Below, in pieces: positions 155 to 21,503 of a DNA stretch of 21,744 nt. The notes beneath the pieces were generated by a model that saw nothing but the letters and a program-made list of their open reading frames with translations, was not told the DNA's origin and searched no databases. The stretch is taken from positions 1 to 21,744 of the IMG/VR virus record IMGVR_UViG_3300044730_000438. One strand, given 5' to 3'. How positions within the stretch are numbered: the first letter of the stretch is position 1; every line of letters starts with the position of its first letter. A program made the translations under genes and the position numbers. The DNA comes from a virus.

Positions 155-212
155 TAGTATAGACCCCCCACCCGCAGCAGCAGGCAGGGGGTGTGCGGTT
201 TCAGAACTGGAT
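155..212 (-). promoter_or_regulatory. Stem-loop/promoter cassette 1
   Basis: A degenerate conserved stem-loop (193-212) holds the TGA stop of the upstream gene. It is followed by a C-rich/G-rich pair (ACCCCC/GGGGGT type) and a TATACT -10 box at 160-155. Transcription runs left into the HicA-like gene. Confidence 0.55.
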
Positions 213-362
213 TTCCTGCAGCGTGGCAGCGTGGTTCAGGAAGTCAGCGATGTTGGCGTCTTCCTCATCACGGACAAGGCGGTCCAGGATCTGCAGCATC
301 TCATTGCCATTGCGGGCACGATTCAGCAGGGAGGCAGCGACGTTGAAAGAAAGGGTGGTCAT
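201..362 (-). CDS. Small hypothetical protein (53 aa)
   Basis: I do not recognise this protein. It begins MTTLSF, has a middle part rich in Leu/Arg/Asn and an acidic stretch (DEEDAN), and ends with a probable amphipathic helix. The ATG at 362 was chosen because it lies 26 nt past the TACAAT -10 at 394-389; the frame is open further upstream, but that would overlap the promoter and the preceding gene. The TGA stop lies inside the next cassette's stem-loop, so the last residues (IQF) are cassette-encoded. Confidence 0.75.
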   Translation of the reverse strand: MTTLSFNVAASLLNRARNGNEMLQILDRLVRDEEDANIADFLNHAATLQEIQF

Positions 363-388
363 CGGTTCAGGGGGTGATGGTTGAGAGT

Positions 389-435
389 ATTGTAGCAGGT
401 CAGCGGGCAAACTGCGCCAGACTGCTGGGAGCGAC
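389..435 (-). promoter_or_regulatory. Stem-loop/promoter cassette 2 (degenerate)
   Basis: The stem-loop part (412-435) is read through by the upstream gene and gives the tail VAPSSLAQ, comparable with VPPSKLAQ in the methyltransferase-like gene at 7817. The -10 is TACAAT at 394-389 and the transcript probably starts in ACTCTCA. Confidence 0.5.
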
Positions 436-561
436 GTGAGCAGGCGATCCACAGGACCGGTAGAAGTCTACCATACGCTCTGCCTCCTGCAGGGTGGGGA
501 ACCACTGGGAGCGCCACTCACAGGCATTGTAGGGGGTCTGGTAACGGACTTCGATTCGCAT
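400..561 (-). CDS. Small hypothetical protein (53 aa)
   Basis: This open frame starts MRIEVRYQTPYNACEW, and its ATG lies 24 nt past a TAGAAT -10 box. It is rich in aromatic residues and Arg (WRSQWF, MVDFYR), typical of small cyanophage proteins, but I assign no function. The C-terminal VAPSSLAQFAR is encoded by the degenerate cassette 2. The gene stops six bases before the -10 of the next unit. Confidence 0.8.
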   Translation of the reverse strand: MRIEVRYQTPYNACEWRSQWFPTLQEAERMVDFYRSCGSPAHVAPSSLAQFAR

Positions 562-585
562 CGGGGTTGGTTGCGTTGTGAGAGT

Positions 586-646
586 ATTCTACAGGGTCAG
601 GGGGTCGGGTGTGACCCCCCTGTGTGCCAGTTCAGAAATCGAACAC
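586..646 (-). promoter_or_regulatory. Stem-loop/promoter cassette 3
   Basis: First stem-loop at 624-646 (right arm partly lost). Second stem GGGGGTC/GACCCCC at 600-606 and 613-619, 7 bp. The -10 is TAGAAT at 591-586, followed by ACTCTCACAA. Confidence 0.7.
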
Positions 647-892
647 GTCGCCGTTGATTTCGGCGCGGTTGACTTTAGGATCATCCCATTTCACACCGTC
701 CCGAGTCTCTTTGGTGCCAAACTCATAGAATACCTCCAGCAGTTCTTCATAGCAGCAGATGTCATTCTCCCGAATGAAGTTATAAATGCTCTCATCATTC
801 TGCATCCAGAGCACAACATTCCAGGTCTCATAATTGGTCCAACCGTTGTAGGTTTGATCAGTGAGGCAGGTCTGGTAAGTGGTGACAGGCAT
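632..892 (-). CDS. Conserved phage protein with NGWTNYETWN motif (86 aa)
   Basis: Residues 16-25 read NGWTNYETWN, followed by a hydrophobic helix (VVLWMQND). This is the signature of a small protein family widespread in tailed phages (DUF7249-like in my recollection), whose function is unknown to me. The second half is acidic (YEELLEVFYEFGTKE) and ends DVFDF. The ATG lies 25 nt past the TACAAT -10 of cassette 4, and the TGA stop is in the centre of cassette 3's stem-loop. Confidence 0.85.
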   Translation of the reverse strand: MPVTTYQTCLTDQTYNGWTNYETWNVVLWMQNDESIYNFIRENDICCYEELLEVFYEFGTKETRDGVKWDDPKVNRAEINGDVFDF

Positions 893-916
893 CGGGTTCG
901 CTTGTGAACTGAAAGT

Positions 917-975
917 ATTGTAAGGGGTCAGAGGGGGGGTTGGTGCCCCCCTTGTGCCACCTTATCAACTGGCAC
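917..975 (-). promoter_or_regulatory. Stem-loop/promoter cassette 4
   Basis: A near-consensus first stem-loop lies at 954-975 (GTGCCA/TGGCAC arms), with the TGA stop of the ligase-like gene in its centre. The second stem is GGGGGG/CCCCCC (934-939, 946-951). The -10 is TACAAT at 922-917. Confidence 0.8.
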
Positions 976-1861
976 ACTGAAAGCGACCGTGATTGAAGTT
1001 TGCATAACTGAAGACCTCACGATTCACCAGTTTATACATACCAAACTCATTGGTCATCACATAACCTTCAGAATCAATACGGTTGCGATTGATATAAGCG
1101 GCAGGACCATCATTGCGGCACAGATAGAGACAATCTGCCTTGATCGATTTCACCAGTGCCCACAACCCCAGCAGGTTAGGATCGCAGTCGAATTCACTAT
1201 TCACAACAGGACGATTCTCACGGATGCAAGCATTCAGTTGCTGTTTGATCTTTGCTGCCTCTTTATCAGTTACAAACTTCACCGCAAGTGCCATCACCCG
1301 TGCAAACTTGCAGACTTCCTCAACATCAGCGAACGATTCTTGACCGTGCTGAATGTATGCTTGCGGTTTCACAAATTTGCAGTAGGAAGTATCAGTGATG
1401 ATAAAGTTCATCGGGTGGGCAACAGCATCACGCAAATCATTCTCTGCCACGTAGACAGTATGAGGTGCGACAATGATCTCCTGATAGACTACTTCAGGAA
1501 ACTTGTAAGTGATCGTGTTGGGAGTATACTCATCACTACCACCAAACCCAACAAAATCACCTTGAATGATAGCATCTGTGCGAGGCAGATAATCAAAGCA
1601 AGCGTGAAGAATACGCGCAACTTCACCCTGATAGAACGAATCAATCTCTTCATGATTGTGAGCGATACGAATCTTTTTCTTGTTAAAGACTGCTTTGGTT
1701 CCTACAAAGAACTCACCGCAGGCAGGGTCAATCCCCCAGACAATTGCAGGGGCACCATCAATCTTAACGCTCAAGTTGCCAGGCGTCACGAACCAATCCA
1801 GGACAGAAAGGTCACCCGTCAGGATAGAATCTTCGGGGTGCTCAAGGTGGGTGTTTTTCAT
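965..1861 (-). CDS. Nucleotidyltransferase/nucleic-acid-ligase-like protein (298 aa)
   Basis: Residues 33-36 are K-I-D-G, the motif I lysine site (KxDG) that is adenylated in ATP-dependent DNA/RNA ligases and related nucleotidyltransferases. A motif III-like strand IIQGDFVGFG lies at 98-107 and a motif V-like FVKP at 163-166. The N-terminal HLEHPEDSILTG and the SDEYTPNT segment match a family I recall from T4-like cyanophages; its substrate is not known to me. Oddly, the ATG lies only 6 nt past the cassette 5 -10 (TACAAT, 1873-1868), so the transcript may be leaderless. The tail QCAS and the TGA come from cassette 4. The ligase fold is a motif inference. Confidence 0.85.
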   Translation of the reverse strand: MKNTHLEHPEDSILTGDLSVLDWFVTPGNLSVKIDGAPAIVWGIDPACGEFFVGTKAVFNKKKIRIAHNHEEIDSFYQGEVARILHACFDYLPRTDAIIQGDFVGFGGSDEYTPNTITYKFPEVVYQEIIVAPHTVYVAENDLRDAVAHPMNFIITDTSYCKFVKPQAYIQHGQESFADVEEVCKFARVMALAVKFVTDKEAAKIKQQLNACIRENRPVVNSEFDCDPNLLGLWALVKSIKADCLYLCRNDGPAAYINRNRIDSEGYVMTNEFGMYKLVNREVFSYANFNHGRFQCAS

Positions 1862-1867
1862 ACTGCT

Positions 1868-2348: not shown

Positions 2349-2374
2349 AAAAAAAGGGAGGCAGATTGCCCCCC
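2349..2374 (-). terminator. Intrinsic terminator
   Basis: On the minus strand, an 8-bp stem (GGGGGGCA/TGCCTCCC, one G-T pair) with a 3-nt loop at 2374-2356 is followed directly by seven T (2355-2349). It begins 6 nt after the stop of the 115-aa gene. It is one of the few classical rho-independent terminators here. Confidence 0.9.
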
Positions 2375-3421: not shown

Positions 3422-3479
3422 AATGTAGCAGGTCTCAGCGGCGCTTGGCAGTCTTCTGTGCCACTTTCACAACCGGCAC
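3422..3479 (-). promoter_or_regulatory. Stem-loop/promoter cassette 8
   Basis: The stem-loop (3458-3479) lies fully inside the upstream gene and is translated as VPVVKVAQ. The -10 is TACATT at 3427-3422. Confidence 0.65.
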
Positions 3480-3704: not shown

Positions 3705-3792
3705 AGTGTAGAGAATGCCTCAACCACGAATCAAACATAACCCACCACGTGGCAGATATCAACCCTCATTGTGCCACTTCGAGAACTGTCAC
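3705..3792 (-). promoter_or_regulatory. Stem-loop/promoter cassette 9 (extended)
   Basis: The stem-loop is at 3771-3792, but the -10 (TACACT, 3710-3705) lies about 60 nt away instead of 30. Here a -35-like TTGATT is found 18 bp upstream of the -10. The 3' end of the miniprotein gene at 3794 abuts the stem-loop. Confidence 0.6.
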
Positions 3793-4093: not shown

Positions 4094-4124
4094 AGCTCGT
4101 CGAGATCGTGTGAGTGACTTGTGT

Positions 4125-4154
4125 ATTATAGCATAGAGCTCGACGAGATTGCAA
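4125..4154 (-). promoter_or_regulatory. Promoter with operator in spacer
   Basis: -35 TTGCAA (4154-4149), 18-bp spacer that contains the palindrome at 4139-4147, and a perfect -10 TATAAT (4130-4125). It points at the Asp/Tyr-rich miniprotein gene. Confidence 0.65.
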
Positions 4155-4258
4155 TAGGTGTGTGCAGGTCTCGTCGAGATTCGTATGATAGTATATATGA
4201 ATCTAGATGCTTCTCGACTAGATTATATGAGAGTCTCGTAACATAATGTCTCGTCGAG

Positions 4259-4287
4259 ATTCTATCATACTCTCATAAGAATGTCAA
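4259..4287 (-). promoter_or_regulatory. Strong sigma70-type promoter flanked by operators
   Basis: Consensus -35 TTGACA (4287-4282), exactly 17 bp, then -10 TAGAAT (4264-4259). Palindromes abut both sides: 4290-4298 just upstream of the -35, and 4250-4258 directly after the -10, over the expected start point. A protein bound at either would be well placed to control it. Confidence 0.8.
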
Positions 4288-4380
4288 GTCTCGTCTAGAT
4301 TTTATGTGAGGGTCTGGGAATTTTTATGGGCGCGGGGGTTGACAAACTGCTCTTCTTATGATACGCTCGCTAAACTCACA

Positions 4381-4514
4381 AGACCCGGAGGCATTTAATA
4401 AGACCTGGAGGGGTTTATAAGCATTCATAAGCATTTAAGACATAAAGACCTGGAGGCATTTATAAGCACTTATAAGCACTTATAAGCACTTATAAGCATT
4501 TAAGACATAAAGAC
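4381..4514 (+). repeat. Nested direct repeats with 10-bp tandem array
   Basis: AGACCYGGAGG occurs at 4381, 4401 and 4446, each followed by an AT-rich TTTATAA-like stretch. A 23-bp direct repeat beginning ATAAGCATTTAAGAC lies at 4427-4449 and 4492-4514. Between them a 10-bp unit, TATAAGCACT, is repeated three times plus one TATAAGCATT (4461-4500), one unit per helical turn. On the minus strand TATAAATG (4464-4457) resembles a T4-type late promoter. Confidence 0.8.
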
Positions 4515-4973: not shown

Positions 4974-5254
4974 ACAAATGCTTGCTGTAAAGGTGTTTGC
5001 TTCAATGGCATTGCTGTATAAGGTGTTGTGTCTTTTGGATTTACACGCTTACCAATGGTCTTACTATTAATGGGTGAGAAGTATTCTTTTGTTTTGGTGT
5101 TGTAGAATCCCCAGATACATTTGACAGGTTTGCCAAGATTATAATCAAAGCACCGATCATAATGAATCCAAATAGCGGTGACATTACGCTTGAAATCTTC
5201 ATATTCATAATACATTCCTTTCGGCGCTTTGTGAGGAAATTCAATCGTTGTCAT
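4970..5254 (-). CDS. Conserved phage hypothetical protein (94 aa)
   Basis: Starts MTTIEFPHKAPKGMYYEYEDFKRNV. The middle WIHYDRCFDYNLG and KCIWGFYNTKTKEYFSPIN suggests alternating strands, and the end is Gln/Pro-rich. Two start codons are possible; the ATG at 5254 gives a 14-nt overlap with the upstream gene and avoids the short MLS extension. No catalytic motif is seen. Confidence 0.8.
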   Translation of the reverse strand: MTTIEFPHKAPKGMYYEYEDFKRNVTAIWIHYDRCFDYNLGKPVKCIWGFYNTKTKEYFSPINSKTIGKRVNPKDTTPYTAMPLKQTPLQQAFV

Positions 5255-5956: not shown

Positions 5957-6072
5957 TTGTGAGGGCGGTTGTAGGACTCAAACAGTTTAACGTCTCTCTG
6001 AATCAGAAAGGCATTGTATCCAAGAATCAGAAACAGAGCAAACAAACAATAGGCAATCATTTTGCGATTCAT
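5953..6072 (-). CDS. Tiny single-pass membrane protein (39 aa)
   Basis: MNRKM is followed by a hydrophobic helix (IAYCLFALFLILGYNAFLI, residues 6-24) and a basic/aromatic tail (QRDVKLFESYNRPHK). It overlaps the upstream stop in TGATG and the downstream start in ATGA. Role unknown; the tight coupling suggests co-expression with the preceding 77-aa protein. Confidence 0.8.
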   Translation of the reverse strand: MNRKMIAYCLFALFLILGYNAFLIQRDVKLFESYNRPHK

Positions 6073-6305
6073 CAGCACGCTCCTGCCATAGGATTGACAT
6101 TGACCGATTCAGTGTTGAAACCGGTGACTTCATAACCAAGACCAATGCGCTCTTCACATTCACGCTCAAAGTCACGCTTGCTGATACACTTGGTGCTCAT
6201 CGTATCAACACCTTGAAACTTCAGCACCTTGTAGACAAATTGAGTGCTACCTTCGATGGGATAATAATCAACAACCATCGAACCAGTGGTAGAGGTCAGT
6301 TGCAT
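6072..6305 (-). CDS. Conserved small protein (77 aa)
   Basis: Starts MQLTSTTGSMVVDYYPIEG. The TQFVYKVLKFQGVDTMSTKCISKRDFE stretch suggests strand-strand-helix, and the end is Gly/Asn-rich with a terminal Cys. First gene of a unit, 27 nt past the TATAAT of cassette 10. No known fold recognised. Confidence 0.8.
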   Translation of the reverse strand: MQLTSTTGSMVVDYYPIEGSTQFVYKVLKFQGVDTMSTKCISKRDFERECEERIGLGYEVTGFNTESVNVNPMAGAC

Positions 6306-6332: not shown

Positions 6333-6390
6333 ATTATAGGGTGCCCCTAGAGGTCTGGGGGCACGTGCTGTGCCAGTTCCTCAACTGGTC
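6333..6390 (-). promoter_or_regulatory. Stem-loop/promoter cassette 10
   Basis: Stem-loop at 6370-6390 with a TGA stop in its centre. Second stem GTGCCCC/GGGGCAC (6341-6347, 6358-6364), 7 bp. Perfect -10 TATAAT at 6338-6333, followed by ACAAAGGTAATC. The 18 bases 6321-6338 are identical to those in cassette 12. Confidence 0.85.
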
Positions 6391-6965
6391 GGGAAGATGT
6401 CAGAGTTTCCACAGTCAATCCAAAGATTCTCATCAACCTGAATGAAACCTACCTCATTTACATTATCATAATGTTCTTGAAGTCGAGCAACCTTATCCTT
6501 CAAACTAATATGCTCAACAACATATCCTTCAAGAGTTTGTGTTGTAACATCAGGGTCATCACTCTTATCTTCCAAACGGTCACGTTCTTGATTGTCTACA
6601 AGAGGTGCAAGAGTTTCCCAACTGTTACCGTGACCATTGGCAAGAATGTGACTGCAATTCAACTTATACATCAAGTTGGTAATCATCATATGAATGTTTT
6701 CTGCATTTGGTTCATCCAGAGTATACTCAAATGCCTCCGCAAGACCAAGACCACATTCACCAGTTTTAATGGGGTCTACACCAGTGGGTTCATATTCTAC
6801 AGAAAAACCAGTCTCATCCCTAGTTTCTGAAACAACTCTTGAAGCAGAAGAATAGTCAATATCTTTCAAGCAGAGTTCTGGTTCTTGATGAACACAATTC
6901 CAAGCCCATTCAAGGATATTGCAAAGTGAATCATATTCAGTTGGAGTCAAAATCGGTTTAGTCAT
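6381..6965 (-). CDS. Acidic hypothetical protein (194 aa)
   Basis: Starts MTKPILTPTEYDSLCNILEWAWNCV; strongly acidic throughout (DNQERDRLEDKSDDPDV). It has an MMITNLMYKLNCSHILANGHG segment that could be a structured core and a Leu-rich helix near the C-terminus (ISLKDKVARLQEHYDNV). No catalytic motif recognised. It is a monocistronic unit between cassettes 10 and 11. The TGA after PTS lies in the cassette stem-loop, and the ATG is 23 nt past the TATAAT. Confidence 0.85.
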   Translation of the reverse strand: MTKPILTPTEYDSLCNILEWAWNCVHQEPELCLKDIDYSSASRVVSETRDETGFSVEYEPTGVDPIKTGECGLGLAEAFEYTLDEPNAENIHMMITNLMYKLNCSHILANGHGNSWETLAPLVDNQERDRLEDKSDDPDVTTQTLEGYVVEHISLKDKVARLQEHYDNVNEVGFIQVDENLWIDCGNSDIFPTS

Positions 6966-6988: not shown

Positions 6989-7045
6989 ATTATAGAGTCA
7001 GAACGACGGCACCACGTCGTTGCGTAGACCAGTTTGCGAACTGTC
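6989..7045 (-). promoter_or_regulatory. Stem-loop/promoter cassette 11
   Basis: Stem-loop at 7027-7045, translated as DSSQTGL in the upstream gene. Second stem AACGACG/CGTCGTT (7002-7008, 7015-7021), 7 bp with a sequence unlike the other copies. -10 TATAAT at 6994-6989. Confidence 0.8.
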
Positions 7046-7204
7046 CATCCGCTCATAGAGAGTGTAAAGTTTGTTGTACACTGCTGGTACACTTCCATAC
7101 TCTCTGGCAATCATTCTTTCTTCTCTAATGTCCAGAAGTTGCAGTGCAGATAGAATCACACCCATTTCGTGAACATTCAAATTTACTTGTGTTTCAGTCA
7201 TCAT
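6998..7204 (-). CDS. Small hypothetical protein with cassette-encoded tail (68 aa)
   Basis: MMTETQVNLNVHEMGVILSALQLLDIREERMIAREYG is followed by VYNKLYTLYERM, then the cassette-derived tail DSSQTGLRNDVVPSF. The body is a helical domain with the NLNVHEMGVILSAL pattern known from small phage proteins. The start is either ATG of an ATGATG pair (7204 or 7201), both overlapping the upstream stop. Function unknown. Confidence 0.85.
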   Translation of the reverse strand: MMTETQVNLNVHEMGVILSALQLLDIREERMIAREYGSVPAVYNKLYTLYERMDSSQTGLRNDVVPSF

Positions 7205-7410: not shown

Positions 7411-7565
7411 TGGATGTTCAGATACTTTTTGTTGCGAATCATATGGTCCAGAATCTCACCAATCATTTGACGGTAAGTTTCATCATAGTTTTTGCTGCAC
7501 TCTTCATAGGCATCATACAGTTTGGTGTAGAGTGTATCCCAGTGTTTGCGATTGATGACAGTCAT
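7407..7565 (-). CDS. Small hypothetical protein (52 aa)
   Basis: MTVINRKHWDTLYTKLYDAYEECSKNYDE is followed by TYRQMIGEILDHMIRNKKYLNIQ. It is predicted all-helical, with a charged surface. It sits in a four-gene unit (7789 to 6998) in which each junction is a stop/start overlap. No function recognised. Confidence 0.85.
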   Translation of the reverse strand: MTVINRKHWDTLYTKLYDAYEECSKNYDETYRQMIGEILDHMIRNKKYLNIQ

Positions 7566-7789
7566 CAGTAGTGTGCCTCCGAATAATCAAGTTGAGCAGA
7601 ATACTTTGCGATGGCATCATAACACTTTGCTGCCATCAATTCATCATTACCAATATAACCAGACAGAAACTCAAAAGCATACTTCATACGCTGTTCGGGT
7701 TGAGCAAGCACACGCTTCAATTCTGCCTGTTGTTTGTTATATGCAAACATCTCACGGTCAGCAAAACTGGTGGTGTAGTAGGGGTGCAT
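7565..7789 (-). CDS. Small hypothetical protein (74 aa)
   Basis: MHPYYTTSFADREMFAYNKQQAELKRVL precedes QPEQRMKYAFEFLSGYIGNDELMAAKCYDAIAKY. It is helical and mildly acidic. First gene after cassette 12 (26 nt past TATAAT) and coupled by TGATG to the next. Role unknown. Confidence 0.85.
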   Translation of the reverse strand: MHPYYTTSFADREMFAYNKQQAELKRVLAQPEQRMKYAFEFLSGYIGNDELMAAKCYDAIAKYSAQLDYSEAHY

Positions 7790-7815: not shown

Positions 7816-7873
7816 ATTATAGGGGCAAACGTGCCTCGCTGCCAGTCCGCTGTGCCAGTTTGGAAGGTGGCAC
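7816..7873 (-). promoter_or_regulatory. Stem-loop/promoter cassette 12
   Basis: Stem-loop at 7852-7873, translated as VPPSKLAQ in the methyltransferase-like gene. The TATAAT -10 (7821-7816) itself supplies that gene's TAA stop. Followed by ACAAAGGTAATC as in cassette 10. Confidence 0.85.
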
Positions 7874-8392
7874 AGTGAGTTCCTCCATTATGATTTGTTT
7901 TGGTAGAAAGTTCCAGCAATAATAACTGCTACTGAACGTGATCTTATCATTTGGACGACCATCCGGACTGTGAAACTTCATCCGTTTGTCGAACATCAAC
8001 AGTTGCAGATCTTTGTCCTTGAACAGTTGCTTTGGAGCACTATCATTCAACCAAGTATTGGTCATAATCAGAGCAAAAGGTTTATTGAATGATAGTGCTC
8101 GTTCAAAGAACTTTCTCTTGTTTGTGAACGGTGGATTCGATACAATCACATCCCATTGTCTTGGTTCAAATGTAAGAAAGTCCTGCCCATACTTGATGTG
8201 AGTGAATACAACCTCATTTTGTTCTGAAATCTGCTTAACAAACTCACTATCAATAGTATCAAACGGACACCAGACAATAACATCTTTGGGAATATATTTG
8301 AGAATGGGCGTCACACCGTAATTTGGTGTGTAACATTCGTCATTATTCCCTACAGAATACATCAGTTTTCCACTATCGAATTCTTGTACCAT
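7817..8392 (-). CDS. DNA adenine-methyltransferase-like protein (191 aa)
   Basis: Contains SNPPF at residues 85-89, the NPPF/NPPY catalytic motif IV of N6-adenine (and some other N) methyltransferases. N-terminal NNDECYTP (16-23) and VWCPFD (40-45) probably stand for the cofactor-binding region; no classical FxGxG is seen. Similar phage proteins are often annotated only as hypothetical or as a nucleotidyltransferase. It overlaps the nuclease candidate upstream by 20 nt, so it could be its protecting methylase. The start is the ATG at 8392 (AAGAG precedes it). About 20 C-terminal residues (from VPPSKLAQ) come from cassette 12. Confidence 0.8.
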   Translation of the reverse strand: MVQEFDSGKLMYSVGNNDECYTPNYGVTPILKYIPKDVIVWCPFDTIDSEFVKQISEQNEVVFTHIKYGQDFLTFEPRQWDVIVSNPPFTNKRKFFERALSFNKPFALIMTNTWLNDSAPKQLFKDKDLQLLMFDKRMKFHSPDGRPNDKITFSSSYYCWNFLPKQIIMEELTVPPSKLAQRTGSEARLPL

Positions 8393-8870
8393 TGCTCTTA
8401 ATTTCTTTTTGAGAGATTGTAACACCAATGCGAGGATCTTTTGCAAATCCTTTCTTCTTTTGAGGATATTGCTTTTGAATCTTGGGAAGAAGAATCTTCA
8501 GAACAGTTTGAGCATCAAGTTTCCAAATTTCAGCAATTCTACCACCTTCATATCGTGCATAATAATGATTGGCATACTTTCCAATCTTGTCTTCAATAAT
8601 ATAACGTTCCTGCTCTTCCCAAGTATCCTGAACGCTGATACCATTATAAGTCCCATTGATAGATTTTGCAATGGTAGATTTATATTCTGCTCCACCTTCT
8701 TCATCAATGGCATCAGCACCCGAATAAGTGTCTGCAATTTTATGACCCAAAACTCCTGCCATATGAATCTCACGGGAGCGAGCATAAGAGAATGGATCTC
8801 CCCAACCCTCTTCCTGGCAAAGATCATACATTTGCTCAAAGAGTTGTTGAAACTTTTGTTCGGGGGTCAT
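8373..8870 (-). CDS. PD-(D/E)XK restriction-endonuclease-like protein (165 aa)
   Basis: Residues 51-64 hold GAD (D53) followed after a short loop by E62-Y-K64, matching the D...(E)xK catalytic core of type II restriction enzymes and related nucleases. A helix-rich N-terminal part (FQQLFEQMYDLCQEEGWGDPFSYARSRE) and a C-terminal basic segment (KILLPKIQKQYPQKKKG) could contact DNA. The 165-aa length is short for a type II enzyme but possible. It is directly followed by a methyltransferase-like gene with a 20-nt overlap, and the pair lies between cassettes 12 and 13. Target unknown; alternatives are a homing or repair nuclease. Confidence 0.7.
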   Translation of the reverse strand: MTPEQKFQQLFEQMYDLCQEEGWGDPFSYARSREIHMAGVLGHKIADTYSGADAIDEEGGAEYKSTIAKSINGTYNGISVQDTWEEQERYIIEDKIGKYANHYYARYEGGRIAEIWKLDAQTVLKILLPKIQKQYPQKKKGFAKDPRIGVTISQKEIKSNGTRIR

Positions 8871-8892: not shown

Positions 8893-8950
8893 ATTATACT
8901 GCCGCCATCAGGCGATTCGGAAAGAACTGTGCCACTTGTTGGACTGGCAC
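8893..8950 (-). promoter_or_regulatory. Stem-loop/promoter cassette 13
   Basis: Stem-loop at 8929-8950, translated as VPVQQVAQ. A short second stem CGCC/GGCG lies before the -10. The -10 TATAAT at 8898-8893 supplies the TAA stop of the metalloprotease gene and is followed by TACAAGGTAATC. It drives the nuclease candidate gene. Confidence 0.85.
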
Positions 8951-9812: not shown

Positions 9813-10163
9813 TCAGCGAGCATAGAGATAAGAACCGTGCCAAGTTGCATTCTCAAGCAACCATTCACGCTGCTCAATGATGCGAAGGTCATAACGAACA
9901 CCTTTGGCAGGAGACTTCCAACTGGCGCTTTTATAAATCTGTCCAGTCTTTTTATCTATAAAGCAATGAACACTGCGACCACCAGCGTTATCAACCATAA
10001 TGACTTTATGATACTTATGACCAGACTCAAAGATGTAATCATAACCATCAGGAGCAGCGTCACGCAGAGCGTCACAGAGCATCCAAGTCCACTTGGTAAC
10101 ATTCAACTGAATGGTGTTACGAGCGTCTTGCTGGGCGGCGTAGTCAGCGAAGGTGGCAGTCAT
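9813..10163 (-). CDS. Conserved cyanophage hypothetical protein (116 aa)
   Basis: Begins MTATFADYAAQQDARN, then WTWMLCDALRDAAPDGYDYIF, KYHKVIMVDNAGGRSVHCFIDKKTG and SASWKSPAKGVRYDLRIIEQREWLLENATWHGSYLYAR. This matches a family I recall across cyanomyoviruses with unknown function. The start at 10163 lies 21 nt past the TATAAT of cassette 14; the 12-residue upstream extension would begin before the transcript start. Confidence 0.85.
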   Translation of the reverse strand: MTATFADYAAQQDARNTIQLNVTKWTWMLCDALRDAAPDGYDYIFESGHKYHKVIMVDNAGGRSVHCFIDKKTGQIYKSASWKSPAKGVRYDLRIIEQREWLLENATWHGSYLYAR

Positions 10164-10184: not shown

Positions 10185-10243
10185 ATTATAGGGGCACACA
10201 GGCGCCCCTGGGAGGGTCAGTATGCCAGTTCTGCATCTGGCAC
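10185..10243 (-). promoter_or_regulatory. Stem-loop/promoter cassette 14
   Basis: Stem-loop at 10222-10243 (GTGCCAG/CTGGCAT arms), translated as VPDAELAY in the upstream gene. Second stem GGGG/CCCC (10191-10194, 10205-10208). -10 TATAAT at 10190-10185. Confidence 0.8.
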
Positions 10244-10351
10244 ATAGGAGTCATCATTCCCCAAGTATCCCATCCAATCTGCAGGTTCAGAACCATAGAT
10301 TTCAATCTCACGGATTTCGTCAATCAATTCAGAAAGTTCAACCGAAAACAT
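10217..10351 (-). CDS. Small acidic hypothetical protein (44 aa)
   Basis: MFSVELSELIDEIREIEIYGSEPADWMGYLGNDDSY is followed by the cassette-coded tail VPDAELAY. The helix ELIDEIREIEI is acidic. The start has a good Shine-Dalgarno sequence (GAGGA) and lies 23 nt past the TATAAT of cassette 15. No function recognised. Confidence 0.8.
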   Translation of the reverse strand: MFSVELSELIDEIREIEIYGSEPADWMGYLGNDDSYVPDAELAY

Positions 10352-10374: not shown

Positions 10375-10430
10375 ATTATAGCAGAAAACCCGCCTTGTGA
10401 GCGGGTCTTGTGACAGTTACCGAACTGGCG
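10375..10430 (-). promoter_or_regulatory. Stem-loop/promoter cassette 15 with terminator
   Basis: A degenerate stem-loop (10410-10430) holds the TAA of the upstream gene. A classical terminator (ACCCGC/GCGGGT stem, then TTTT) follows, and -10 TATAAT lies at 10380-10375, followed by AAAAAGGTAATT. It shows the cassette acting as a terminator-promoter hinge. Confidence 0.8.
10384..10404 (-). terminator. Intrinsic terminator within cassette 15
   Basis: A 6-bp stem ACCCGC/GCGGGT with a 7-nt loop and a following TTTT ends the unit 11569-10417 just before the next -10. Confidence 0.7.
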
Positions 10431-10569
10431 GCGGAAGTTGTGGTTGATTCATTTCTACTGTAGTCTTTTGAAGATTAAACATTGCACCGTCAAGAACTTT
10501 GGCAATAGGACCAAACCCAACAGTTGCAGCGATAATCCCAAAAATCACACCAGAAATGAAGTTAAACAT
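10417..10569 (-). CDS. Small membrane protein (50 aa)
   Basis: MFNFISGVIFGIIAATVGFGPIAKVL forms one hydrophobic helix, followed by a polar part (MFNLQKTTVEMNQPQ) and LPPPVR, the last part cassette-encoded. It overlaps the upstream gene in TAATG. It is co-transcribed with the prohibitin-like gene, so it may act in the same membrane. Role unknown. Confidence 0.8.
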   Translation of the reverse strand: MFNFISGVIFGIIAATVGFGPIAKVLDGAMFNLQKTTVEMNQPQLPPPVR

Positions 10570-11167: not shown

Positions 11168-11569
11168 TCAAGCAGCAAGGGCACCAGAGGGAATTTCAAC
11201 GACTTCAGGAAGTTTGCTGTCGTCAAACTGATGCATATTATAGCACACCCATTCACCACTGCGGAAGACATAAGCATATTCTTCGCTATTATCAGGCAGA
11301 AGATATTCACACAGGTCAGCATCAAGACGAGGAGGGCAATCTTCACCACGCTGAGAATAGTATTCGGGGTGATAGGTATTCTCACAGTCATTCTTAGTCC
11401 AGCAAGAACTCATATCACCACCATCAATCAGTTCGGCAGCAAGTTCTTTGCTATTATAGTGCGTCGTCAGAATGCGACCCAACCATTCTGGATAACCATC
11501 ATAATGATGATATGCCGACAAAATAGAACCATCAGCGAGTTCAAGACCGATGCGAGAGCAAGTTGCCAT
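11168..11569 (-). CDS. Conserved phage protein, MATCSRIGLEL family (133 aa)
   Basis: Starts MATCSRIGLELADGSILSAYHHYDGYPEWLGRIL, a signature of a phage-encoded family of unknown function (usually MATRSRIGIEL...YCHWDGYP). It has several Cys (SCWTKNDCEN, EDCPP) and an acidic C-terminal half (LLPDNSEEYAYVF). First gene of the unit, 25 nt past the TATACT -10 of cassette 16. Confidence 0.85.
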   Translation of the reverse strand: MATCSRIGLELADGSILSAYHHYDGYPEWLGRILTTHYNSKELAAELIDGGDMSSCWTKNDCENTYHPEYYSQRGEDCPPRLDADLCEYLLPDNSEEYAYVFRSGEWVCYNMHQFDDSKLPEVVEIPSGALAA

Positions 11570-11592: not shown

Positions 11593-12369
11593 TTAGTATA
11601 ATGCCTCTAGCAGCGGATTCTGGGGGTCCTGTGCCACTTCCTGAACTGGCACACCATTGATCCTTTGTTGAGCGACCGAAAAGTATTCTTCCTCTCGCTC
11701 AATGCCGATAAAGTTTCTATTTTCTATTTTAGATGCGATTCCAGTGGTGCCAGATCCCATACAGGGGTCCAGTACCAGATCACCCTCATTAGAGAATGTT
11801 CTAATCAACCAACGATAAAGATCTACTGGTTTCTGTGTGGGATGGTATTTTCCTTCACCTTCTGCAGTCTTGAAGTAAATGACACTGCGGGGATACCTCA
11901 ACCCACTATCATTTTTTACATGAACTGCTTTTGTCTGAACACCATATGCTTCAGTATCTCTTACTGCAGTTCCCTTATCATATGGTGTTCCTTGTGTCAT
12001 TTGGGGATTGTATGTTGGTTGCTTCTTATAGAACACTACAATATCTTCATGAGCACGTAGAGGTTGTTTCTTGGCATTCAGATAACCAGTTGCCTTTGAT
12101 TTTTCCCACACCATTGTATACTTGAAGTTCCTATAGTTTGAAGCAATAAGCACGCTTGTAAATGGTTGTGCTGCTGTTGAGATGATAGGGCACGTTGGTT
12201 TGCATATACGATCAACATGCTCCCAAAACTTTGGATAATCAATGATGGTATCCCACTCATTTCTTTTGTTCAGAGTTCCATAAGGAAAATCTGTCAATAA
12301 CAAATCGATGCTCTGGGGAGCAAGATTCCCCAGAACATCGAACATATCATCGTTGAATAATTCAATCAT
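11593..12369 (-). CDS. Type II DNA methyltransferase, beta class (258 aa)
   Basis: Motif IV is TDFPYG (residues 26-31), a variant of the DPPY/SPPY catalytic site. Motif I DPCMGSGTTG follows near the C-terminus, after HPTQKP. The order IV then I, with the target-recognition region between, is that of beta-class N6-adenine/N4-cytosine methyltransferases, which transfer methyl groups from S-adenosylmethionine to DNA. The start at 12369 fuses with the nuclease gene stop (ATGA). Residues from VPVQEVAQ onward come from cassette 16, and the TAA stop overlaps the TATACT -10. Target site unknown. Confidence 0.9.
   Translation of the reverse strand: MIELFNDDMFDVLGNLAPQSIDLLLTDFPYGTLNKRNEWDTIIDYPKFWEHVDRICKPTCPIISTAAQPFTSVLIASNYRNFKYTMVWEKSKATGYLNAKKQPLRAHEDIVVFYKKQPTYNPQMTQGTPYDKGTAVRDTEAYGVQTKAVHVKNDSGLRYPRSVIYFKTAEGEGKYHPTQKPVDLYRWLIRTFSNEGDLVLDPCMGSGTTGIASKIENRNFIGIEREEEYFSVAQQRINGVPVQEVAQDPQNPLLEALY
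11595..11652 (-). promoter_or_regulatory. Stem-loop/promoter cassette 16
   Basis: Consensus stem-loop at 11631-11652 (GTGCCA/TGGCAC), translated as VPVQEVAQ. -10 TATACT at 11600-11595, followed by AACAAGGTACTC. No clear second stem. Confidence 0.8.
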
Positions 12370-12944
12370 TTTTGCAACCAATCAATAAATTTATTATAAA
12401 CCACTTCGTCAAGTTTGAAGTCAGCGCGATAGTCTGCGTTGTAAATAGGGCGCTTCGAATTACGCTTACGATACGGATTAACAAAAAAAATGTTCAGATC
12501 TTTACCAGTGATTTTTTTGAAAAATGCAGGATAATATGCAAAAGCATCTTTACCGCAGGCATTCTGACCAGCAAAAATTGCAAACTCTGCATCATCAGGA
12601 ACATCCGGAGATTGATCAAGTTCAATCAAATCAAAAACTGCACGTTTGAGATAACAAGCATCCAAGTAAGTCTTGGATTCTACCAATTTTTTCAGTACAC
12701 CTTGAACATAAATGTGAAAGTCAACTTGAAGATTCTTCAAGCACCTATTATTAACAATCATGGAACGCTTATAATCATTTTTACGGGCATCAAGATCCAA
12801 TTCTTCACAAGTTCTCAAAGTAAGATTTTCGTAAATAAGACCAGATGCATTCCTTGCTTTACCGCCGCCAAAATTTTTATGAAGATTGGGAAGATCATCC
12901 ACTTCTTTGTTGTAACTTTCAATAATCAAATCAAGATTAGACAT
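12366..12944 (-). CDS. Type II restriction endonuclease candidate (192 aa)
   Basis: Residues 71-91 contain NLQVD (D75) and, after a hydrophobic strand, ES-K91 (E89-S-K91), the D...ExK core of PD-(D/E)XK nucleases; G35xxxE39 may supply the helix glutamate. The N-terminal region has NFGGGKARNASG, possibly a DNA-contact loop. It is followed by a DNA methyltransferase gene with a 4-nt stop/start overlap, the layout of a type II restriction-modification pair. The start at 12944 lies 23 nt past the TATAAT; the ATG at 12959 is too close to it. The methylase would protect phage and host DNA while the nuclease could attack rival phage DNA; that role is inference. Confidence 0.75.
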   Translation of the reverse strand: MSNLDLIIESYNKEVDDLPNLHKNFGGGKARNASGLIYENLTLRTCEELDLDARKNDYKRSMIVNNRCLKNLQVDFHIYVQGVLKKLVESKTYLDACYLKRAVFDLIELDQSPDVPDDAEFAIFAGQNACGKDAFAYYPAFFKKITGKDLNIFFVNPYRKRNSKRPIYNADYRADFKLDEVVYNKFIDWLQK

Positions 12945-12967
12945 GATTCGGTCGTGCATATGAATAT

Positions 12968-13024
12968 ATTATAAGGGGTCCCCAGTGCCCTGAGAACCCC
13001 CTGTGTGCCAGTTTGCTAACTGTC
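12968..13024 (-). promoter_or_regulatory. Stem-loop/promoter cassette 17
   Basis: A slightly degenerate stem-loop (13005-13024) lies just after the CP12 stop. G/C-rich DNA with GGGG/CCCC pairing follows, then -10 TATAAT (12973-12968). It isolates the restriction-modification pair from CP12. Confidence 0.8.
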
Positions 13025-13025
13025 C

Positions 13026-13238
13026 TCAATCCTCATAAATTCTACACTCAAGTGCATCAGGATTGGCATCGCAATAAAGTTCCAGTGGTGTAGGATCGTG
13101 AGAGTCTTCAGGATGATTCTCTTTATATACTTTGAGTGCTTCTAATTCTTCTTCAGTATGTCTTCTTGCTTGTGGAGATGTCATAGGATCATTCAAAAGA
13201 TCCTCGTCTCTTTGAATGTGTTGGTCTATTGTACTCAT
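13026..13238 (-). CDS. cp12: CP12, Calvin-cycle regulator (70 aa)
   Basis: The C-terminus LELYCDANPDALECRIYED is the CP12 signature, with the two cysteines of the C-terminal GAPDH-binding loop and a final YED. The HTEEELEAL helix replaces the AWD-VEEL motif of host CP12. CP12 links GAPDH and phosphoribulokinase into an inactive complex, blocking the Calvin cycle. Cyanophages use it to divert NADPH and ATP to nucleotide synthesis. No N-terminal cysteine pair is present. It follows directly after a run of small genes; see the late-promoter candidate at 13259. Confidence 0.9.
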   Translation of the reverse strand: MSTIDQHIQRDEDLLNDPMTSPQARRHTEEELEALKVYKENHPEDSHDPTPLELYCDANPDALECRIYED

Positions 13239-14136: not shown

Positions 14137-14703
14137 TTAATTTACTTTTTTAAGAAGAAATGATCCGTCCAAATTATCTACCCATTCAACTCTATCACCT
14201 TCTTTAAGGTCTGCTGCTTCTAAAAGATCATCGGGAAACGTAATACAATATTCATCTTTATCAGTGTCTTCATCTCTGACCACTTCAACAGGAAGAACCC
14301 ATTTTACCACTTTATCTTTCTTCTGATTAGCAACAAGATACTCAAGGTCACTATGCCCCCAAGGTCTCATACCATCATCGGATTCTTCCCAGAATGAAGT
14401 CCAAGACTTTTTACATTCTTGAGATAGGTCATCTTTATCACAAGATTTTTGTGCTTCTTCTGGATAATAAGTTTCTTCCCACTCTTTCCACCCTTGAATA
14501 TGACCTTTACCATTACCATTTAGAAGAGCAAGAAGTTCATAGCAACGACCAGTATGATGCTTAAAGTAATGATATTCTTCATTCACAATACCTTTGATGG
14601 TATCATAAATTTCCTGCGGAGACACTTCCGCAGAAACTAAAGCATCTCTCACCCAAGTTTTTACTTGTTCAAGAGAATGTTTTTTGTATCCAAAGTCACT
14701 CAT
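14137..14703 (-). CDS. Protein with C-terminal AbrB-like domain (188 aa)
   Basis: The last about 40 residues (ITFPDDLLEAADLKEGDRVEWVDNLDGSFLLKKV) form the swapped-hairpin pattern of AbrB/MazE/SpoVT DNA-binding domains, where a conserved LxEGDxVEW stretch is typical. The N-terminal 140 residues are helical and acidic and are not recognised. Such proteins often regulate genes, or act as antitoxins; here either is possible. The start is MSDFGYKKHSLE at 14703, with an 8-nt overlap with the upstream gene. Confidence 0.8.
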   Translation of the reverse strand: MSDFGYKKHSLEQVKTWVRDALVSAEVSPQEIYDTIKGIVNEEYHYFKHHTGRCYELLALLNGNGKGHIQGWKEWEETYYPEEAQKSCDKDDLSQECKKSWTSFWEESDDGMRPWGHSDLEYLVANQKKDKVVKWVLPVEVVRDEDTDKDEYCITFPDDLLEAADLKEGDRVEWVDNLDGSFLLKKVN

Positions 14704-14875
14704 TTTCATACTCCTTGATTGCTTCCTCCATTATAACCTGAAGTTCTTTAGAGGTCAACCCATTCAACCACGCCCAATTTGGGTCTTCTTTGTCCCATTC
14801 TGCAGTATAAGACCCATCATCATTTTTTGTGATTCTGAAACTATCAGTCTCTTGGTTTTGGTTTGTTACATTCAT
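14696..14875 (-). CDS. Small acidic hypothetical protein (59 aa)
   Basis: MNVTNQNQETDSFRITKNDDGSYTAEWDKEDPNWAWLNG is followed by LTSKELQVIMEEAIKEYENE. It pairs a short beta part with a terminal amphipathic helix. It overlaps the zinc-finger frame upstream by 32 nt and the AbrB-tailed gene by 8 nt. No function recognised. Confidence 0.8.
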   Translation of the reverse strand: MNVTNQNQETDSFRITKNDDGSYTAEWDKEDPNWAWLNGLTSKELQVIMEEAIKEYENE

Positions 14876-16937: not shown

Positions 16938-17269
16938 TCTTCATCATCCCAAGGTGCTTTACGATTTAATATCTCTTTGAATCTTTCCATTATAGCAGGG
17001 TCTGGTGGTTCATTCAAGCGTTCTACAAGAGCATCAAAGTCTTTTGCAGGCAACACAATCCTTTCAGGTTTTGCTCCTTTACCCCAGAACTTCTCAAACT
17101 CCCACTTATAATTCATATCATACCATCCACCATTCAGAGAATGCCAAAACTCTCCCCAAATGTGATAATCATCAAAGCGAAAACCCTGATGCGACATCAA
17201 ACGATACCACCACCAGAATGGAGTATATTTAATCGGTTTAAATCCGATTATCCATTTGTTTATGACCAT
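16934..17269 (-). CDS. W-rich protein with TacA-like antitoxin tail (111 aa)
   Basis: The C-terminus RIVLPAKDFDALVERLNEPPDPA then MERFKEILNRKAPWDDEE resembles the toxin-binding tail of DUF1778/TacA antitoxins (...FDALVxxLNxPP...). The N-terminal 65 residues are Trp/Tyr-rich (KYTPFWWWYRLM, FWHSLNGGWYD) and do not look like the usual ribbon-helix-helix DNA-binding part. No acetyltransferase toxin partner is found next to it. It could neutralise a host toxin; that is inference. Confidence 0.75.
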   Translation of the reverse strand: MVINKWIIGFKPIKYTPFWWWYRLMSHQGFRFDDYHIWGEFWHSLNGGWYDMNYKWEFEKFWGKGAKPERIVLPAKDFDALVERLNEPPDPAIMERFKEILNRKAPWDDEE

Positions 17270-20135: not shown

Positions 20136-20317
20136 AAGTCCAAAGGTTGTTGAGGGTCTCTTTTCCAAGTTTCCTTATAAGTAATCCACCGTTCCACACC
20201 AATTTCTTGTTGTGCAGACCAGTGGTATCCATTTTCATCAATCGCATCAAGATAATGCACCCCAGTTTTAGGGCAGATTACTCTGGATACTTGTGTGAAT
20301 TTTAGTTTGTTAGTCAT
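20132..20317 (-). CDS. Small beta-rich hypothetical protein (61 aa)
   Basis: MTNKLKFTQVSRVICPKTGVHYLDAIDENGYHWSAQQEI then RWITYKETWKRDP. It is beta-rich with one Cys and several Trp. ATGA overlaps on both sides. No function recognised. Confidence 0.8.
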   Translation of the reverse strand: MTNKLKFTQVSRVICPKTGVHYLDAIDENGYHWSAQQEIGVERWITYKETWKRDPQQPLDL

Positions 20318-20448
20318 TCTTCAATCTCCACATTTCCCCAACGATTGAGTGCCTCACGGATAGTGTTTCTAACTTCAGGATAAAGATTGTAATACCCTCC
20401 AATCTCATCCCAGAGTTCATCAAGTTGTTCGTCAGTTGGTTCAGTCAT
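20314..20448 (-). CDS. Small acidic protein (44 aa)
   Basis: MTEPTDEQLDELWDEIGGYYNLYPEVRN is followed by TIREALNRWGNVEIEE. It is acidic and helical. The TDEQLDELWDEI opening is a common one among small phage proteins. ATGA overlap downstream; 2 nt separate it from the upstream stop. Confidence 0.8.
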   Translation of the reverse strand: MTEPTDEQLDELWDEIGGYYNLYPEVRNTIREALNRWGNVEIEE

Positions 20449-20450
20449 AA

Positions 20451-20654
20451 TCAATAATCAACTCCTTCTACTCTATTATCCCAATTTGCTCTCACATCTT
20501 TAAACCTAAAATCATAAAGTCGTTGAACAGCACCATGGCGATTGACGATTTCGTTTTCCAACTGACGAATGTAGATATAAACTGGGTCGGGCACTTCAAA
20601 GTTTTGAAGGTCTTTGTAGGGCATATTGTAGCACGAAATGTAGGATTTAGTCAT
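20451..20654 (-). CDS. Small hypothetical protein (67 aa)
   Basis: MTKSYISCYNMPYKDLQNFEVPDPVYIYIRQLENEIV then NRHGAVQRLYDFRFKDVRANWDNRVEGVDY. It combines a Tyr-rich head with a charged helix. ATGA overlap with the gene upstream. No function recognised. Confidence 0.8.
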   Translation of the reverse strand: MTKSYISCYNMPYKDLQNFEVPDPVYIYIRQLENEIVNRHGAVQRLYDFRFKDVRANWDNRVEGVDY

Positions 20655-20851
20655 TTCTGGTTCTCTTGAAGTTTGAGGTAATCATAAGAAATTTTGCATT
20701 CCTTTTGTTTTTCCATACAGAACACAATACCATCATTCTTTCCCTTTACCACACCGTCATCAAAACCAAACCTACTTCCCAAAAGAAAAAACACACCAAC
20801 AGATGCAAAGAGTGCAAATAAAAGTCCTCCAATAACACTATCATCGTTCAT
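20651..20851 (-). CDS. Small membrane protein (66 aa)
   Basis: MNDDSVIGGLLFALFASVGVFFLLGSRFGFDDGVVKGKN: one hydrophobic helix (residues 6-24) then a charged part with two Cys (VFCMEKQKECKISYDYL). Probably an inner-membrane protein with a cytoplasmic tail. It lies 1 nt after the upstream stop. No function recognised. Confidence 0.8.
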   Translation of the reverse strand: MNDDSVIGGLLFALFASVGVFFLLGSRFGFDDGVVKGKNDGIVFCMEKQKECKISYDYLKLQENQK

Positions 20852-20852
20852 T

Positions 20853-21071
20853 TCACTTCACCTCATTATAAAATACAGGAACTTCACCACAAATAGAATT
20901 TGCTGAATGACCTACGGTATAAGACTTCCTACATTCTATCACAATCTCATAAGTTTTCACAAACATCTCTCTGTCCTTTTGAGTATTGTAAGTGTTTAGT
21001 AGTTCCATAGAAAGGAAATAACCAGTGACGATGAGAAGTGGAATGATGAGAGTAAAGATAAAGAGTTTCAT
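20853..21071 (-). CDS. Small membrane or secreted protein (72 aa)
   Basis: MKLFIFTLIIPLLIVTGYFLSMELL is a signal-anchor or long signal peptide. The remainder (NTYNTQKDREMFVKTYEIVIECRKSY then SICGEVPVFYNEVK) holds two cysteines that could pair outside the cytoplasm. The start at 21071 overlaps the upstream gene in ATGA. Function unknown. Confidence 0.8.
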   Translation of the reverse strand: MKLFIFTLIIPLLIVTGYFLSMELLNTYNTQKDREMFVKTYEIVIECRKSYTVGHSANSICGEVPVFYNEVK

Positions 21072-21253
21072 TTCAATCCACTCACACAAATAGAACAAAG
21101 ACAATCATCAGTTTTAGGAACTCTAAACATAATGTGATTTCCAGAGCAACAATCTCTATCACCACATTTCATACAATTATCACAAACCCACTCTTTTTGA
21201 TTACGACATTTGACGAAATCTTCAAGAGTATAGTTTTGAAGAAGATTAGTCAT
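21068..21253 (-). CDS. Cysteine-rich small protein, probable zinc binder (61 aa)
   Basis: MTNLLQNYTLEDFVKCRNQKEWVCDNCMKCGDRDCCSG followed by DDCLCSICVSGLK: nine or so cysteines arranged in CxxC-type clusters. It looks like a small zinc-binding domain, perhaps interacting with nucleic acid or a host protein. ATGA overlaps on both sides. Confidence 0.8.
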   Translation of the reverse strand: MTNLLQNYTLEDFVKCRNQKEWVCDNCMKCGDRDCCSGNHIMFRVPKTDDCLCSICVSGLK

Positions 21254-21426
21254 TTTTCAGCAACCACCACAAAATCATCCATAGAAATACTCCTCTTACT
21301 TTTAGCAAGAATACCTTGATTTGGAAAATAAGGAACTGCTACAAGATTATAGAATGGTCTTAACTGCTCATAGAGAGTATAAAGGTGTCCGTCTTTCTTG
21401 TATCGGTAGAGTTTCATTTCAGTCAT
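21250..21426 (-). CDS. Small basic hypothetical protein (58 aa)
   Basis: MTEMKLYRYKKDGHLYTLYEQLRPFYNLVAVPYFP then SKRSISMDDFVVVAEK. It resembles a small phage family with the MKLYRYKKDG opening. The start at 21426 lies 21 nt past the TATAAT of cassette 18; the ATG at 21417 is also possible. No function recognised. Confidence 0.8.
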   Translation of the reverse strand: MTEMKLYRYKKDGHLYTLYEQLRPFYNLVAVPYFPNQGILAKSKRSISMDDFVVVAEK

Positions 21427-21447
21427 AAAGTTTCTGTGTGTGAGAGT

Positions 21448-21503
21448 ATTATAAGGCATCCACAGGGTCTGTGGTGAGGTCTTGTGCCAGTTTAGAAAGT
21501 GTC
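21448..21503 (-). promoter_or_regulatory. Stem-loop/promoter cassette 18
   Basis: A slightly degenerate stem-loop (21484-21503) contains the stop of the upstream gene. Second stem CCACAG/CTGTGG (21460-21465, 21469-21474). -10 TATAAT at 21453-21448, followed by ACTCTCACAC as in cassettes 2 and 3. It starts the long cassette-free chain. Confidence 0.8.

Follow-up and report, generated by a model that had tools for sequence, protein, structure and literature searches.

The window carries a repeated unit at its gene boundaries

The window analyzed here is a 21,744-base stretch of viral DNA, the IMG/VR record IMGVR_UViG_3300044730_000438, for which the closest annotated relative found is the freshwater Synechococcus phage S-SRM01 (Kyanoviridae). 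It carries many copies of a 22-24 bp pseudo-palindrome, which reads about RKGMCA[C/G]TT-N4-AA[C/G]TGGCAC on the coding (minus) strand and forms part of a composite unit. Each unit runs from the end of an upstream gene through the pseudo-palindrome, a spacer of ~30-31 nt, a -10 hexamer, and a predicted +1 7 nt further on to the ATG of the next gene. A loose form of the pattern (GTGCCA-N10-TGGCAC, at most three mismatches) finds 16 matches in the window, compared with a mean of 6.41 and a maximum of 14 in 100 shuffles. Sites were scored with a 26-column profile trained on 165 IMG/VR units and 16 window sites; because these 16 sites are in the training set, the profile scores of the window copies are partly circular.

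The original prediction listed 18 copies of a stem-loop, all in the same orientation and each followed by a TATAAT-like -10. On the minus strand, 15 of the 18 places reach a score of at least 11, but the copy at 7027 is degraded, that at 193 is a remnant, and place 412 (score -46.8) is not a copy. The common orientation, left without a strand in that prediction, is the minus strand of the genes and promoters, which carries the unit-associated genes of the window as judged from the open reading frame (ORF) list and the site flanks. When the -10 is sought on this strand at offsets 27-35, with a half-point bonus for offsets 30 and 31, the best -10-like hexamer falls at 29-32 nt in 17 of the 18 places (412 set aside), although several of the hexamers are poor (TATGTT, CATACT, TACATT, and TAGAAT).

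All copies lie on the minus strand. Full pseudo-palindromes are found at 954-975 (score 28.6; -10 TACAAT at 917-922, offset 31), upstream of the gene at 632-892 (DUF7249 in Pfam); at 2201-2222 (25.3; TATAGT at 2165-2170, offset 30), upstream of 1923-2141, where a second -10-like hexamer on the plus side was chosen by the automatic table; and at 7852-7873 (30.4; TATAAT at 7816-7821, offset 30), upstream of 7565-7789. Another, at 8929-8950 (30.6; TATAAT at 8893-8898, offset 30), precedes 8373-8870, a member of a family that also has the unit in P-SSM2 (72.6% identical), and the highest score (33.8) belongs to the copy at 11631-11652, which lies in the last codons of a DNA methylase gene (Pfam; 11593-12381) and, with TATACT at 11595-11600 (offset 30), upstream of 11168-11569.

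Further pseudo-palindromes stand at 1905-1926 (25.5; TACAAT at 1868-1873, offset 31), upstream of 965-1861 (DUF6267 in Pfam); at 2792-2813 (27.3; poor -10 CATACT at 2755-2760), upstream of 2381-2728 (Kyano_Gp96 in Pfam), a family with the unit also in S-RIM2; at 3458-3479 (28.7; TACATT at 3422-3427, offset 30), upstream of a 42-amino-acid ORF whose family has the unit also in S-SRM01; and at 3771-3792 (31.5; poor -10 TATGTT at 3734-3739, offset 31). The copy at 6370-6391 (28.1; TATAAT at 6333-6338, offset 31) lies upstream of 6072-6305, from a family with the unit also in P-SSM2 and ACG-2014f, and that at 10222-10243 (22.9; TATAAT at 10185-10190, offset 31) upstream of 9813-10163, placed in the DUF7717 family through its relatives and the Pfam match of the S-SRM01 relative. 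The copy at 13005-13026 (31.6; TATAAT at 12968-12973, offset 31) precedes 12366-12959, and the copy at 21484-21505 (31.3; TATAAT at 21448-21453, offset 30) precedes an ATG inside ORF 21250-21459.

Weaker copies are found at 10410-10431 (13.8; TATAAT at 10375-10380, offset 29), upstream of an ATG at 10351, and at 624-645 (12.9; TAGAAT at 586-591, offset 32), upstream of 400-561, where the proximal half is intact and the distal half degraded. The degraded copy listed at 7027 occupies 7026-7047 (6.6; TATAAT at 6989-6994, offset 31), upstream of 6381-6965, and the doubtful remnant occupies 193-214 (-11.9; TATACT at 156-161, offset 31). The gene that ends at the copy at 13005 (13026-13238, minus strand) encodes the Calvin-cycle regulator CP12, and the same arrangement is present in S-SRM01 near 72007.

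The palindrome is held at a fixed distance from a sigma-70-type -10

The spacing between palindrome and -10 is fixed well beyond the window. A scan of IMG/VR with the palindrome alone, in which no promoter was selected for, returned at least 120 stretches with 157 palindromes. Among the matches listed, exact TATAAT occurs 36 times at offset 30, 19 times at 31, 7 times at 40-42, and 11 times at all other offsets combined, counted for the 154 of 157 palindromes with full flanks, on both sides and at offsets 0-73. The same peak, with 107 -10-like hexamers at 29-31 (threshold 10), appears when the profile is run at all offsets over nine named phages and the window. Profile matches in these genomes exceed both Markov and reversed controls, strongly in most genomes and weakly in S-RIM2, and a plain pattern of half-site plus TATAAT yields 40 matches against 1 in the control across 17 records. 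Of 183 profile sites, 118 have a -10 that matches at least five of six positions, as in an early-type sigma-70 promoter, at 29-32 or 40-42 nt.

Keeping 107 of these 118 sites (score at least 14, offset 29-32, distinct spacer), we find much information in the palindrome and -10 columns and little in the spacer columns. TTGACA-like hexamers (at least four of six positions) are present at a gap of 17 in 33 of the 107 units, of 16 in 11, and of 18 in 4, with 0-1 at each of the other gaps between 13 and 21. A spacer hairpin followed by a T run is found in 18 of the 107; 62 spacers fold to -6 kcal/mol or better, with a mean z of -1.08 and 33% of shuffles at least as stable. A fixed spacing with a free spacer sequence fits a protein that touches the polymerase, and is not what would be expected of a terminator that happens to lie beside a promoter.

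The gene context was examined in 119 units from the window and ten named phages (score at least 14), a set that leaves out S-SRM01 207134 and offsets of 40 or more, and to which seven window units (including the doubtful one at 193) and five P-HM2 sites were added by hand. With start codons sought only 8-75 nt past the -10, the ATG lies 20-29 nt past it for 92 of the 110 downstream ORFs found. Of the 115 upstream ORFs found, 65 end inside the palindrome, which thus often supplies the stop codon of the upstream gene. ORF-based gene calling was unreliable here, and the units checked by eye against annotation lie nearly all within tandem gene runs. The original prediction is supported in so far as the variable region of this T4-type cyanophage has promoter-containing units that recur at gene boundaries, with a layout resembling that of promoter early stem-loops (PeSLs).

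Two start sites deserve mention here. The DUF6267 gene (965-1861, minus strand) has its ATG at the predicted +1, both in the window and in P-SSM2 (at 58536), and its message may for this reason be leaderless. In S-PM2, the gene S-PM2p056 is annotated to start at 17030, a position straddled by the unit at 17031; the gene therefore probably begins downstream of the unit's -10.

The unit precedes DUF7717 genes selected without reference to the motif

To avoid selection on the motif, 51 relatives of the window DUF7717 gene were fetched, of which 3 had too little upstream sequence; 48 loci were kept, 38 of them distinct. Just upstream of DUF7717, 36 of the 48 loci have a profile score of at least 10, and 35 of these 36 have a -10 matching at least five of six positions at 30-31. 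A score of at least 14 is reached by 33 of the 48 upstream regions, compared with 83 of 830 random windows of the same contigs, a background that we attribute to further units on the contigs. Among the DUF7717 copies the distal half is highly variable: in 26 distinct cores whose -10 matches at least five of six positions at 30-31, two of which (L543 and L571) score below 10, the proximal half holds 14.5 bits and the distal half 10.4.

Sequence rather than pairing is conserved

The copies were rightly described as conserved in sequence, yet what is conserved is the sequence itself and not the ability of its arms to pair. The same 26 gene-anchored cores, evaluated at nine pairs, have 172 of 234 cells paired, no significant excess over the 169.1 +/- 2.7 obtained by shuffling columns, and in the named phages 636 of 945 cells are paired, below the column-shuffled expectation of 654.1 +/- 6.7. 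One-sided differences outnumber compensatory ones in both pairing sets (1060 to 62 and 19942 to 686).

The clearest departure from pairing is at columns 7 and 16. In IMG/VR samples chosen by proximal half and -10 (139 and 104 matches, of which the 93 and 64 with at least six distal matches were kept), a C in column 16 goes with C in column 7 in 66 cases and with G in 26, and a G in column 16 goes with G in 43 cases and with C in 14 (Fisher p = 1.8e-8, among the matches listed). The named phages behave in the same way (CC 32, GG 27, GC 26, CG 7; Fisher p = 0.002). As double-stranded DNA, C..C and G..G are one element in two orientations, while as RNA both are mismatches. An RNA stem-loop as the conserved function is rejected on these grounds, and the functional part of the original stem-loop proposal is not supported. 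An intrinsic terminator is likewise rejected for the palindrome, which is followed on its 3' side by A and then mixed sequence without a T run. A tRNA identity was also rejected, and Rfam 15 gives no match in the window at gathering score.

The unit is present across the Kyanoviridae

The unit is a family-wide feature. Among the matches listed, at least two ORFs with Kyanoviridae homologues are present in 117 of 120 palindrome loci and in 184 of 202 further loci found by proximal half and -10. Profile matches outnumber controls in 10 of 11 Kyanoviridae genomes scanned, with few matches in some of them; many sites are found in ACG-2014f, S-SRM01, S-CRM01, P-SSM2, and S-PM2, and fewer in P-SSM3, Bellamy, S-RIM2, and Syn9. 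The exception is S-N03, which shows no excess (1 match against 2 in the control), as is the case for the Caulobacter phage Cr30 (1 against 1). DSL-LC03 has 9 matches against 0, S-TIM5 has 5 of divergent look against 0, the first 50 kb of P-HM2 hold 11 strand matches against 0, and the plain pattern finds 5 against 0 in S-ShM2. With at most one mismatch, the plain pattern is absent from RB3, P-SSP7, and Ma-LMM01. Sites are dense in the variable regions: 24 of 27 in ACG-2014f lie at 27-54 kb, 14 of 16 in P-SSM2 at 44-69 kb, and 18 of 21 in S-SRM01 at 49-90 kb.

Among host genomes, no clear excess is seen in the family of Cyanobium CH-040 (3 matches against 1 in the control, 151 genomes), nor in four cyanobacterial genomes chosen for holding the palindrome (22 against 20, uneven between genomes). 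In GTDB, the exact palindrome is found at 32 loci, against ~15 by a hand-made uniform-base estimate, and 4 of the 32 are labelled cyanobacterial. One contig in the bin of a Flavobacteriales metagenome-assembled genome (MAG) holds a complete unit, with its TATAAT at offset 30, and probably derives from a cyanophage. In P-SSM2, three minus-strand units lie at 66337-66613, in an annotated intergenic gap of a plus-strand region, where they could possibly produce antisense or small RNAs.

Units follow the downstream gene

The unit is linked to the gene downstream of it. Families with the unit in at least two phages include DUF7717 (5 phages), a family of 276-397 amino acids to which the window DUF6267 gene probably belongs on sequence grounds (5), a MoxR ATPase (4), and a helicase-like family (3). 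In 26 of 239 reciprocal homologous pairs both members carry the unit, where simple arithmetic predicts ~14 if its occurrence were independent. The upstream neighbours change: among 38 listed pairs of homologous downstream genes from different phages, one has a homologous upstream gene. Upstream neighbours are homologous in 0 of 26 pairs with the unit on both members, 4 of 64 with the unit on one, and 19 of 149 with the unit on neither. Gene shuffling by the units, as first proposed, agrees with the 26 pairs but is suggestive only, because the control pairs give p = 0.08 (both against neither).

A deletion in S-PM2 was mapped between 5,799 and 15,339, according to the excerpted text of PMC4503421; the ends of this one mapped deletion do not fall at units, the nearest of which are at 5,077 and 17,031. 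The same excerpt names two potential stem loops in S-PM2, one of them, at 11,369-11,391, being the hairpin in the spacer that belongs to the unit at 11,348, and judges a PeSL mechanism unlikely in the cyanophage discussed (PMC4503421). PeSLs had already been discussed for a cyanophage in that paper; a description of the palindrome itself was not found in searches of the open-licence literature, a scope outside which most subscription papers fall.

Candidate binding factors

DUF7717 is a weak candidate for the binding factor. It is present in 10 of 10 unit-bearing Kyanoviridae genomes compared and not in S-N03, and its own gene is preceded by a unit in several phages; the candidacy is weak because S-N03 is the only unit-less member of the family available. 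By tblastn, DUF7717, the MoxR ATPase, and a VWA peptidase are found in 7 of 7 unit-rich phages compared and not in S-N03, Cr30, or S-TIM5; the last of these nevertheless has the 5 profile matches given above. A structural model of DUF7717 (mean predicted local distance difference test score 91.9) has no Foldseek neighbour in the PDB at E of 0.001 or lower (best 0.45).

The window protein at 14137-14709 (minus strand) has a C-terminal AbrB/MazE-like domain (phrog_661). Besides the window, 10 of 17 named phages have phrog_661 (S-TIM5 weakly), with no match found in the unit-bearing S-CRM01 and Bellamy. Its members look acidic by eye. For AbrB, the excerpted text of PMC11497800 gives the pseudo-consensus TGGNA. 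A 69-amino-acid protein with a helix-turn-helix look by eye has no Pfam match.

Other features of the window

Six copies of a second motif, about GTCTCGTCGAGATTC, are spaced 31-43 nt apart at 4094-4302, where there is no listed ORF of at least 50 amino acids. Close by, at 4380-4509, lies an imperfect 65-nt direct repeat with a (GCACTTATAA)n array, which could be an origin or a promoter cluster. A methylase-like gene (7817-8437, minus strand) adjoins 8373-8870 (minus strand), which has a weak PvuII-endonuclease match; all of these matches are below the Pfam cut-offs (E 0.0001 to 0.0037), and the two genes are a possible phage-borne restriction-modification pair.

Discussion

Because its spacing is fixed, its spacer is free, and its pairing is not selected, we interpret the palindrome, with a probability of roughly 0.65, as a site recognised in double-stranded DNA and not as an RNA stem-loop. 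It would lie near -54 of a sigma-70-type promoter and would most likely serve a dimeric activator. Each unit would form a compact boundary between two genes, with the pseudo-palindrome centred at about -54 of the next gene's promoter and usually overlapping the end of the upstream gene, and with a spacer of 30-31 bp that sometimes holds a -35-like hexamer at the right distance and sometimes a terminator-like hairpin. Most likely, a dimeric DNA-binding protein would occupy one face of the helix at a fixed position and recruit or stimulate the cyanobacterial RNA polymerase in a class-I-like manner, drawing most of its specificity from the promoter-proximal half-site. This protein would be expected to activate rather than repress, at early or middle times, and would probably be encoded by the phage. 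The unit would then define a regulon, mostly of small variable-region genes, common to most Kyanoviridae examined. More specifically, and as a tentative proposal, a global activator encoded by the Kyanoviridae may bind the asymmetric pseudo-palindrome in either orientation at a fixed helix face, an unrecognised factor that would stand in for Alt/ModA and MotA/AsiA of T4 in the early-to-middle programme.

Several observations weigh against this recognition-site interpretation. Twelve of the 48 DUF7717 loci have no profile match of at least 10, and 65 of the 183 profile sites have no -10 of at least five of six positions at the spacings tested, including 18 of 29 in S-CRM01 and 11 of 12 in Syn9. 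In S-RIM2 the signal is weak (11 profile matches against 3 and 3 in controls; 2 against 3 for the plain pattern). The class of sites one helical turn further out comprises perhaps four independent cases, related sequences are not independent of one another, and the greater conservation of the proximal half has independent support from the gene-anchored set alone, since training of the profile fixed that half. A repressor or an architectural protein could also occupy the same site, though the position fits an activator.

If the repeat were instead a PeSL-type RNA element, it would be transcribed at the 3' end of the upstream message as a terminator or as a processing or stabilising hairpin, and the promoter would be a separate neighbour. 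The palindrome does adjoin or overlap the upstream gene's 3' end, with 65 of 115 upstream ORFs ending inside it; folding energies reach about -9 to -10 kcal/mol for some copies of the window; the gene-anchored copies have a mean folding energy slightly better than shuffled (-5.68 against -5.27 +/- 0.38); and the layout is PeSL-like. We nevertheless consider this quite improbable, given that no T run follows the palindrome, that the copies of the named phages pair and fold worse than shuffled (-3.50 against -3.98 +/- 0.25), that columns 7 and 16 favour like-with-like mismatches, and that the distance to the -10 is fixed to 1-2 bp while the spacer is free. It seems unlikely, too, that the protein at this site is encoded by the host, as a factor conserved among picocyanobacteria of which the phages make use. 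Such a factor would account for a site common to phages of Prochlorococcus and of marine and freshwater Synechococcus, truly immediate-early promoters must rely on what the host supplies, a cyanobacterium-like MAG has 6 matches against 1 in the control, and the 32 GTDB loci are about twice the hand estimate of 15; the hosts, however, show no clear enrichment (3 against 1 in the 151 genomes and 22 against 20 in the four preselected ones), and only 4 of the 32 loci are labelled cyanobacterial.

Very little weight falls on a repressor operator or silencing site that would shut these promoters off later in infection: the half-sites are pseudo-palindromic and dimer-like, but repressors usually sit at -35/-10, whereas the predicted position here, -43 to -64, is outside these elements and the fixed spacing is typical of polymerase contact. 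It is hard to credit that the repeat is a recombination target, or a selfish short sequence spread by copying, with no role in transcription. Either would account for the abundance of the repeat at gene boundaries and for upstream neighbours that differ (0 of 26 homologous), but what the copies have in common is the site, the spacing, and the -10 and hardly the spacer; they follow the downstream gene across genera, and the mapped S-PM2 deletion arose without use of units.

Compared with known systems, the palindrome as a DNA site resembles those of class I activators. Such activators (CRP-like) bind a palindromic site upstream of -35 at helically phased distances, which is the arrangement seen here, and to our knowledge the sequence of the unit is unlike that of any class I activator site. 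T4 early promoters with UP elements are likewise host-type promoters with extra conserved upstream sequence; UP elements, however, are A+T-rich, while the unit has a G+C-containing pseudo-palindrome with its own consensus. PeSLs, reportedly the subject of work by Arbiol in 2010 and Comeau in 2014, offer the closest parallel in layout. Known from T4-type phages (as related in PMC4503421), they share with the present units the repetition of a composite element at variable-region gene boundaries, which couples the end of one gene to an early-type promoter of the next. Unlike in PeSLs, the conserved repeat here is an upstream DNA site at a fixed distance with unselected pairing, and a hairpin with a T run is present in a minority of spacers. 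T4 middle promoters also combine a sigma-70 -10 with a recognition site at a fixed distance, in many copies per phage, but the MotA box has its centre at -30 and takes the place of the -35 (excerpt of PMC2988021), whereas the site of the unit lies near -54, ends ~43 nt upstream of the predicted start, and leaves a -35-like hexamer in part of the units.

Picocyanobacteria of marine and fresh waters are host to abundant T4-like cyanophages. In its excerpted text, a 2010 review (PMC2984593) reports cyanomyoviruses to be without homologues of alt, modA, modB, motA, and asi and calls the mechanism of early and middle transcription unclear; it describes sigma-70-like motifs ahead of early-gene homologues in S-PM2 and Syn9 and, for P-SSM4 (printed P-SMM4) and Syn9 though not for P-SSM2 or S-PM2, a putative middle promoter. 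Other promoter work on cyanophages, as excerpted, used sigma-70, T4-late, Pho, and NtcA models (PMC3037559) or concerned motifs upstream of psbA (PMC5931967). The unit bears on how early and middle transcription is controlled in cyanophages without motA and asi: as a promoter class with a defined site, a fixed spacing, and predicted starts in many genomes, it makes this question directly testable. It also allows operons to be predicted across large regions of unknown genes and supplies a bait with which to find the factor, and the repeats may show how these viruses switch on many of their variable genes.

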